Source: Chitinophagaceae bacterium (GTDB taxonomy: Bacteria > Bacteroidota > Bacteroidia > Chitinophagales > Chitinophagaceae). From it: DNA of 64,000 bases. Position numbers and translations under genes: made by a program. The notes beneath the pieces are model-generated. The model saw only the letters and a list, made by a program, of their open reading frames with translations. It ran no database searches and had not been told where the DNA came from. This document shows, in pieces, positions 9,192-10,566 of this stretch. Every line of letters starts with the position of its first letter. Position 1 is the first letter of the stretch. Location of the stretch: the NCBI GenBank assembly GCA_026415715.1, contig JAOAGO010000001.1:62001-126000 (forward strand). The letters run 5' to 3'.

Positions 9192-9340
9192 AAATAGCTA
9201 AGGCCGATCAAATAAAGGCCTGCATAAATGTGGAGCAATATGCCAAATATTGCCATAAAAACCGGGACTGGTATCAGCCGATGCTGGCCGACCGGTACCT
9301 GAGAACCAAAGAATACGAAACCCAATGGCATGCACTATGA
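9185..9340 (+). CDS. -1-frame continuation of the preceding gene
   Basis: The -1 frame across the T6-A5 run reads FLKIAKADQIKACINVEQYA..., then NRDWYQPMLADRYLRTKEYE, and stops at TGA 9338-9340. This completes the usual end of small phage replication proteins (an aromatic NRDWYQP-like segment, then a short basic helix). It has no good start of its own. The stop overlaps the GemA start as ATGA (9337-9340), the same coupling used at 8910, which suggests this frame is or recently was translated. Confidence 0.55.
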   Translation, partial: FLKIAKADQIKACINVEQYAKYCHKNRDWYQPMLADRYLRTKEYETQWHAL

Positions 9341-9741
9341 TAACAACACAACGCAACCGAACACTGCACGCCTTGCTGCACGCCACCTGCCTGATGAGCC
9401 AAAAAGCTAACTTAGTGCTGGGCATAAGCGGCGGCCGCACCGAAAAAAGCAGCGAGCTAACCGATACGGAAGCCAGAGAACTGTGCGACTACCTGCGGCG
9501 GCAGCTGCCGCAAGGCAGTACCCCGGAAAAAGCCAACACCATGCGGCGGAAAATAATAGCCATGGCGCACCAAATGGGATGGAAAACACCCGACGGGCGC
9601 GCCGATATGCAACGCATTAACCACTGGTGCAGCCAGCAGTGGGGCAAAAAACCGCTAAACGGCTACACCCTGCACGAACTGCCCAAGCTGGTAAGCATAT
9701 TTGAAAAGGTATATATCCAATTTTTACACAAAACAAAATAA
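9337..9741 (+). CDS. GemA/Gp16-like regulatory protein
   Basis: 134 residues from ATG 9337, chosen because it overlaps the -1-frame stop as ATGA; ATG 9325 would add four residues. The region KANTMRRKIIAMAHQMGW, a middle ADMQRINHWC and the end NGYTLHELPKLVSIFEK match the GemA/Gp16 family (DUF1018). In Mu, GemA modulates host DNA supercoiling and late-gene expression. It is the last gene before a consensus promoter and the antirepressor unit. Confidence 0.82.
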   Translation: MITTQRNRTLHALLHATCLMSQKANLVLGISGGRTEKSSELTDTEARELCDYLRRQLPQGSTPEKANTMRRKIIAMAHQMGWKTPDGRADMQRINHWCSQQWGKKPLNGYTLHELPKLVSIFEKVYIQFLHKTK

Positions 9742-9773
9742 TTTGGTAAAACCGGAACAAAGCCGTAGATTTG
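9742..9773 (+). promoter_or_regulatory. Consensus promoter of the antirepressor unit
   Basis: TTTG (9742-9745), a 20-nt spacer, and TAGATTTG (9766-9773): an exact match to the Bacteroidota sigma-ABfr form TTTG-N19..21-TAnnTTTG. Transcription should start around 9780, about 45 nt ahead of the structured RNA. The -35-like box begins right after the GemA stop codon. Confidence 0.75.
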
Positions 9774-9818
9774 CTTTTGACAACACCTTTTAGAGCAATG
9801 TTCCGATTATTTACAGCT

Positions 9819-9900
9819 AAAAATAAGGCAGGCATACGGGTGAAAGTCCCGAGACTTCTCATGCTCTATGAGGTTGTTCTCAGTGACCTGCCGATTTTTA
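9819..9900 (+). ncRNA. Structured leader RNA upstream of the antirepressor (c4-like candidate)
   Basis: A three-way arrangement: closing stem GGCAGG (9827-9832) with CCTGCC (9887-9892), extended by AAAAAT/ATTTTT outside; hairpin CGGG-TGAAAGT-CCCG (9837-9851); hairpin CTCAT-GCTCT-ATGAG (9858-9872). The 3' arm runs into GATTTTTATTT, so the closing stem doubles as an intrinsic terminator placed directly before the antirepressor ATG (9904). In phages P1 and P7 a small c4 antisense RNA from the same transcript represses ant. Position and size fit, but I found only weak complementarity (five bases) to the downstream start region, so an attenuator or protein-bound leader is equally possible. Confidence 0.5.
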
Positions 9901-9903
9901 TTT

Positions 9904-10566
9904 ATGACAACATTTCAGTCGAAAGTCCAGCCGACCGCTACTCGGAGCCTGGCGGCAGTCCATGTTGACTTGCCTTTAATTCAGCAGGGTGAAAAATTGT
10001 TAATTTCAGCCTTTTTATTACACAAAAAATTAGGAGTGAAAACCCGGTTCAATGACTGGTTTCAAAGAAGAATTGATAAGTATGGTTTTGAAATCAACAT
10101 TGACTTTTACTCAAATTTGAGTAAATCTAAGACGCGGCCTGTTAGCGATTATTTATTGTCGCTTGATATGGCAAAAGAGCTAGCCATGTTAGAAGAAAAC
10201 GAGATAGGCCGTGCAGTACGGCGCTATTTTATAGAGAAGGAGAAAGAGCTTCGCGGGGTGTTAATGCTACCCGCCGGCAGTGAATTATTGAAAGGCCTTA
10301 AGCCACTTAAAATAAACGGCCGGGTACTGTATCCGTACCGGGAGGTACCGCGTCGCTGCGGCTATAGCGCCAAAAGCAGCGGCAGCCACCGCAAAGCCCG
10401 CTACTGGATGCACTTTGTGCTGTACGATAACCTGCTGTACATTACCAAAGAGTTTGCCCTGCACCTGTACCATCAGATGCAGCTGATGCAAAACCGCAAA
10501 GCGCTGCCGGCTGCTCAGCCGGTGCTGCCTTTGCAATTTGGCGACAATAGTTTGTTAACATTTTAA
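9904..10566 (+). CDS. AntA-domain antirepressor
   Basis: 220 residues from ATG 9904. Residues about 25-105 match the AntA/AntB family: PLIQQGEKLLISAFLLHKKL, RFNDWFQRRIDKYGF, then YLLSLDMAKELAMLEENE and RRYFIEKEKEL. The C-terminal half (about 120-195) is a second basic domain with several Tyr and Trp. Antirepressors of this kind inactivate phage repressors (P1 Ant1/Ant2) and promote lytic growth. The gene has its own consensus promoter and a structured leader, so it is probably controlled separately from the early operon. A longer start (ATG 9868) would lie inside the leader RNA and is less likely. Confidence 0.8.
   Translation: MTTFQSKVQPTATRSLAAVHVDLPLIQQGEKLLISAFLLHKKLGVKTRFNDWFQRRIDKYGFEINIDFYSNLSKSKTRPVSDYLLSLDMAKELAMLEENEIGRAVRRYFIEKEKELRGVLMLPAGSELLKGLKPLKINGRVLYPYREVPRRCGYSAKSSGSHRKARYWMHFVLYDNLLYITKEFALHLYHQMQLMQNRKALPAAQPVLPLQFGDNSLLTF

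Follow-up and report, generated by a model that had tools for sequence, protein, structure and literature searches.

The window, as we call the whole 64-kb stretch of DNA analysed here, is part of a Chitinophagaceae genome and contains a Mu-like prophage, identified by its S24 repressor, MuB-type AAA protein, GemA-like gene, Mu F-like protein, and Portal_Mu. The early region ends with the GemA-like gene (9325-9741, forward strand; PF06252, E 1e-4, under the curated cut-off). Downstream on the same strand lies ant (9904-10566), whose 220-aa product is an AntA-domain antirepressor (PF08346, E 6e-21; phrog_5817 anti-repressor, E 2e-33). Its presumed target is the S24-type phage repressor encoded on the reverse strand at 1070-1747 (PF00717, E 4e-12; phrog_4 transcriptional repressor). 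These assignments bear out the first-pass annotation, which had placed a structured leader ahead of an antirepressor in a Mu-like phage. When the Ant protein was searched for among 59 near relatives of the host genome, the window's own genome was the sole match.

The leader between these two genes opens with a Bacteroidota promoter (9742-9773, forward strand), made up of the -33 element TTTG at 9742-9745 and the -7 element TAGATTTG at 9766-9773. As had been claimed, TTTG-N20-TAGATTTG reproduces the -33/-7 consensus TTTG-N20-TAnnTTTG exactly, and the form TTTG-N19-21-TAnnTTTG occurs at 3 sites on both strands of the whole 64 kb. A sigma-70 reading of TTGACA at 9777 was discarded, since no TATAAT lies at the proper distance and the Bacteroidota consensus is exact. 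The segment named a1 (9778-9796, forward strand) begins 4 nt after the -7 element; this gap is 2-4 nt, mostly 3, in 18 of the 20 cases compared. Since a1 sits 2-4 nt past the -7 element, transcripts probably start with it, and a1 is the predicted 5' end of the leader RNA. A 7-bp inverted repeat (CGGAACA/TGTTCCG, at 9753-9759 and 9799-9805) flanks the window's -7 element, and no further copy was found near the repressor gene. By eye, many AntA relatives (L163 1351-1390, L144 1827-1872, L244 1313-1360, L167 1268-1312, and others) have a1 enclosed in a DNA dyad such as ATTTGCCC..GGGCAAAT, which also overlaps the -7 element and could possibly serve as a repressor operator.

The promoter is followed by a three-stem RNA domain (9825-9903, forward strand), delimited by comparison with locus L250, by 17 relatives, and by matches to models R1 and R2. 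The outer stem pairs 9827-9835 with 9883-9885 and 9887-9892 around a bulged A at 9886, and it encloses P2 (9837-9840/9848-9851, loop UGAAAGU) and P3 (9857-9862/9868-9873). The 3' arm of the outer stem and a U5 run at 9895-9899 form an element that looks terminator-like from its sequence (9887-9899), so that the closing stem and U-run end just ahead of the ATG at 9904, and the hairpins lie where they had first been drawn. Folding energy was set aside as proof of this structure: the stretch as a whole is unremarkable (z -1.5), and the hairpin domain of the window is moderate (z -2.5, with 4 of 200 shuffles equally good), while hairpin-domain values are negative in 17/17 class members (-1.2 to -3.6). 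It is covariation that places the stems above chance. In an alignment built without structure, all 19 pairs of the window are kept in L250, with 8 double compensatory changes spread over all three helices; L250/L418 is the nearest relative and comes from another genus of the same family. Over 17 sequences, standard pairs fill 94.4% of the pair cells, and covariation scores 0.62 where slid structures score 0.06-0.13, although this alignment was fitted to the model and is therefore biased towards its structure. Neither P3 nor the four outermost pairs of the outer stem entered the DNA pattern used in the search, and those four pairs are formed in all 17 sequences, with 3 or 4 pair types each. A MAFFT alignment of the first four leaders misaligned P2 and P3 and was left out of the counts. 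The P2 hairpin (CGGGUGMAAGUCCCG; 9837-9851 in the window, and in relatives) looks like a tRNA T-arm, and its UGMAA loop follows the general T-loop pattern.

A covariance model built from the window and L250, as the first-pass annotation had suggested, retrieved five family loci outside the window, L250 among them, plus weaker ones. The DNA pattern, which fixed the P2 region and the inner portion of the outer stem and nothing else, matched eleven viral contigs. Among 396 family genomes, 5 gave strong RNA matches (E < 1e-7), that of the window included; in a phylum-wide sample of 345 they occurred in the window's genome and three others, and just those three were accepted on reading. Low-scoring R2 matches in other genomes proved to be tRNA-Leu genes or non-homologous stretches and were discarded. 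AntA proteins of the window's kind are encoded in 8 of the 396 family genomes (locus L083 belongs to one genome, G836, of Chitinophagaceae UBA7600). On reading, the leader was not seen before other AntA genes, in Flavobacterium covae and Spirosoma.

The most informative feature of the leader, absent from the first-pass annotation, is an antisense triplet. It consists of a1 at the predicted 5' end of the RNA, a complement a' inside the RNA, and a2, a copy of a1, at the following gene's start codon. The position of a' in the AntA relatives is after P3 and before the closing arm. The sequence of the triplet varies by system and still fits its own partners, as seen in L083 (ATGCCAAACGTTCAACAC), L163 (ATGCTAAACTCACAACACG), and L144 (ATGCGAAACACAACACAG). 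This match was measured by swapping partners among 24 AntA systems, which mix several stem architectures and include few that look like the window's RNA. The a':a2 duplex averages -21.4 kcal/mol with its own partner and -12.3 kcal/mol with permuted ones (0 of 20,000 permutations, z -12.8), the ant-start segment being taken without the 3' arm of the outer stem. For a1 and the RNA the corresponding means are -28.2 and -14.5 kcal/mol (0 of 20,000, z -15.8). As the systems share kinship, these permutation counts are not strict probabilities; the partner sequences nonetheless differ between systems. In the window's own RNA class (17 members), the match of a' reaches z 9.8 for a2 and z 10.4 for a1. 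Most relatives match a2 with a' at at least 9 of 10-13 positions, and in L250 this pairing is near-perfect; among the 17 members, L437 has no clear a2 and none was recognised in L441. The two copies depart from full complementarity to a' in different ways. The a1 copies show 24 G-U wobbles (mostly C-to-T) and 14 mismatches, whereas the a2 copies show 7 wobbles and 47 mismatches, the latter mainly at the far end. This asymmetry fits competition between two RNA-RNA pairings, with a2 as the putative stronger binder in the core.

Before AntA, L003, L004, L084, L086, L105, L138, L047, and L339 carry another leader architecture, a longer one (GGCAGCCTAACCCCGT..ACGGGAAGTGGGCTGCC), that follows the same triplet logic; the longer leaders of L003 and L004 were scanned against Rfam and gave no match. 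Repeat-complement-repeat triplets also precede AntA outside Bacteroidota, in Bartonella and others (L051/L037, L126, L201, L143).

In the window itself, the core of a1 (TGACAACA, 9778-9785) repeats the ant start region, and a1 can pair with 9863-9884 in the hairpin domain, the P3 loop included. This a1:RNA duplex (-22.7 kcal/mol) is the best of 24 both ways, with a shuffle p of 0.01. The start codon region a2 (ATGACAACA, 9904-9912, forward strand) is an 8-nt repeat of a1 and corresponds to the a2 of relatives. The antisense segment a' (GTTGTTCTCA, 9873-9882, forward strand), set between P3 and the outer stem's 3' arm, matches a2 at 7 of 9 positions and has diverged from the GTGTTGTCA expected from a1 and a2, which is exactly what is found in L420, where a1 and a2 are the same as in the window. 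At -9.3 kcal/mol, the resulting a':a2 duplex is weak: a bulge splits it into 5+3 bp, its shuffle p is 0.70, and it is no better than with swapped partners; the a' of the window is the outlier of its class (score 4, against about 8-10). Since its own a':a2 pairing cannot be told from shuffles, a C4-like function of this copy is deduced from the class, and because a' has drifted, repression may be weaker here than in relatives.

The genes that follow the RNA are mutually non-homologous, and a' tracks the start codon of whichever comes next. AntA follows in the window and L250, and P22_AR_N in L421 (PF10547, E 4e-19). By reading rather than by family search, L428, L438, and L429 carry BRO-like and P22_AR-like antirepressors, and L433 a RadC-like protein. 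Further class members precede small proteins of about 58-104 aa. Known antirepressors are thus not the sole targets, since many members stand before small ORFs or a RadC-like gene.

The textbook example of an antirepressor controlled by C4 comes from phages P1 and P7, and the window class can be compared with it point by point. The order promoter, a1, RNA, a2, (icd), ant is common to both (C4, RF01695; c4-a1b1, RF03163), the P1 record listing promoters, a1, b1, C4 RNA, a2, b2, icd, and ant. In the Rfam structure of P1 C4, as in the window class, two hairpins lie within an outer stem and a single-stranded a' comes ahead of its closing arm, and in both a second copy of the target, a1, precedes the RNA in one transcript. 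C4 folds into three stem-loops and is cut by RNase P, its a' conferring specificity and its b' partly covering the ribosome binding site (PMC5320573). Its complementarity to the start of the controlled gene (PMC5320573) is shared by the class and is weak in the window itself. There are also differences. The P2 loop is UGMAAGU rather than a UUCG-type tetraloop, the target is the ant start codon itself rather than a site before icd, and a1 sits at the predicted transcript start, unlike in P1/P7. No b'/b2 pair has so far been recognised in the window class. The hosts are Bacteroidota, whereas the published range of C4 is Proteobacteria and phages (PMC2864571). The search with the Rfam C4 model that the first-pass annotation had proposed gave no match in the window at the gathering score (45 bits) and none up to E 10 in 9720-9930; the 16 class relatives did not match either, and P1 itself scores 68.8 bits. 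Membership of Rfam C4 by score is thus ruled out for the window and these relatives, and conversely model R2 does not retrieve P1 C4. On present evidence, the window RNA would work like C4 without being a member of the C4 family by score. No Rfam 15 family matches the window or the 16 class relatives at the leader position. No earlier description of a C4-like antirepressor RNA in Bacteroidota was found in Rfam 15 or the open-access literature, in line with the novelty first supposed, and the RNA is most likely a C4-type antisense RNA acting on start codons, a kind new to this phylum.

Two other known systems offer partial parallels. In the plasmid antisense attenuators of the pT181/pIP501 type the leader, like the window RNA, has a terminator-like stem and alternative pairings that exclude each other, but their antisense RNA comes from the opposite strand and the window RNA from the target's own strand. 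A closer likeness is found in L028, where sRNA-Xcc1 (RF02221, 63 bits, 2808-2894) stands directly before an AntA gene with the same stem order, although it is a sequence family separate from the window RNA. There, an GTGTAGTGAC repeat lies on both sides, with its complement GTCACTA inside the RNA in a single-stranded stretch. sRNA-Xcc1 came from a Xanthomonas library screen and its function is not known (PMC2996969); from this arrangement, it may itself be a C4-type antirepressor RNA.

The reading that we consider quite probable is a C4-type antisense RNA that silences the antirepressor, and a model can be proposed for it. The leader would be transcribed from its own promoter, starting with a1 as a mimic of the ant start codon region, and would fold into three stems that expose the short a'. 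With a' paired to a2, which comprises the AUG and opening codons of ant, ribosomes would be unable to start. Bacteroidota rely little on Shine-Dalgarno sequences, and the start codon itself would therefore be targeted. Once separated from the leader, either by processing or because transcription stops at the U-run, the RNA would act in trans on other ant transcripts, and this silencing would keep the lysogen quiet and confer immunity. In the unprocessed transcript, a1 could occupy a' and parts of P3; as this pairing is G-U wobbled in many relatives where a2 is Watson-Crick, it may act as a weaker, tunable intramolecular lock. That a1 departs from complementarity mostly by G-U wobble is what RNA pairing predicts, and argues for the C4-type reading, as does the presence of the same RNA ahead of the unrelated AntA, P22_AR_N, and (by reading) BRO-like antirepressors.

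The first-pass annotation had left the choice between a C4-like and an attenuator switch. With attenuation, the outer stem and U-run would be an intrinsic terminator with which a1:a' pairing competes, the leader choosing between stopping and reading into ant. The window does have a GC stem and U5 right ahead of the ATG, and its a1 pairs with P3 and a' within the outer stem, so that it must compete with this stem or form a pseudoknot. However, a T run of at least five follows the closing stem in just 9 of the 17 relatives, and attenuation alone leaves the match of a' to the next start codon unexplained; we hold it to be unlikely, although it may coexist with antisense control. For the RNA class the C4-like half has strong support, through its P1 gene order, stem layout, covariation, and an a' that fits the next start in almost every system. 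The claim as a whole is only partly supported, because a':a2 pairing in the window is weak and not significant alone, and because the signs of an attenuator are mixed.

That weakness could also mean that the window holds a decayed copy, whose fold and promoter stay while its antisense arm no longer recognises ant, leaving ant free or otherwise controlled. Such decay would account for the outlying a' and its non-significant duplex, but the stems, promoter, a1/a2 identity, and a1:RNA pairing are intact and 5+3 bp of a':a2 remain, which makes it rather improbable. More improbable still is that the triplet is mainly a DNA feature, with repeats around the promoter and ant start bound by the phage repressor or Ant and the hairpins incidental. 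The dyad that, by eye, encloses a1 and overlaps the -7 element in several AntA relatives speaks for this. On the other side, the stems covary, a1 deviates chiefly by G-U wobbles, the triplet is free to vary between systems while its partners match, and the window has no strong dyad except the 7 bp at 9753/9799.

Beyond the window, C4-type control by the class would amount to an undescribed family of Bacteroidota phage antisense RNAs, a proposal that we find reasonably probable. It would be a portable same-strand module: its transcript would open with a copy, weakened by wobbles, of the region around the following start codon, its a' would be re-tailored for each gene, and its targets would include several small ORFs and no fewer than three unrelated families of antirepressors. 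The C4 architecture appears here without detectable sequence similarity, in Bacteroidota phages and before unrelated antirepressors, which suggests that same-strand antisense silencing of an antirepressor is a solution of general use, one that may have arisen on more than one occasion. The complement of a' provides a simple rule for predicting targets, and the co-varying partner sets found in nature are suited to testing the specificity of immunity. Small genes of unassigned role in the same position become candidate regulators of lysis and lysogeny. In L419, L420, and L427 (about 1500-1800), all on Chitinophagaceae chromosomes, a conserved orphan protein of about 73 aa (..KIAEALRSVILRHYIVEEAINSHQDLKQL..) is encoded after the RNA, and the copy in L427 has PIN-domain genes on its flanks.
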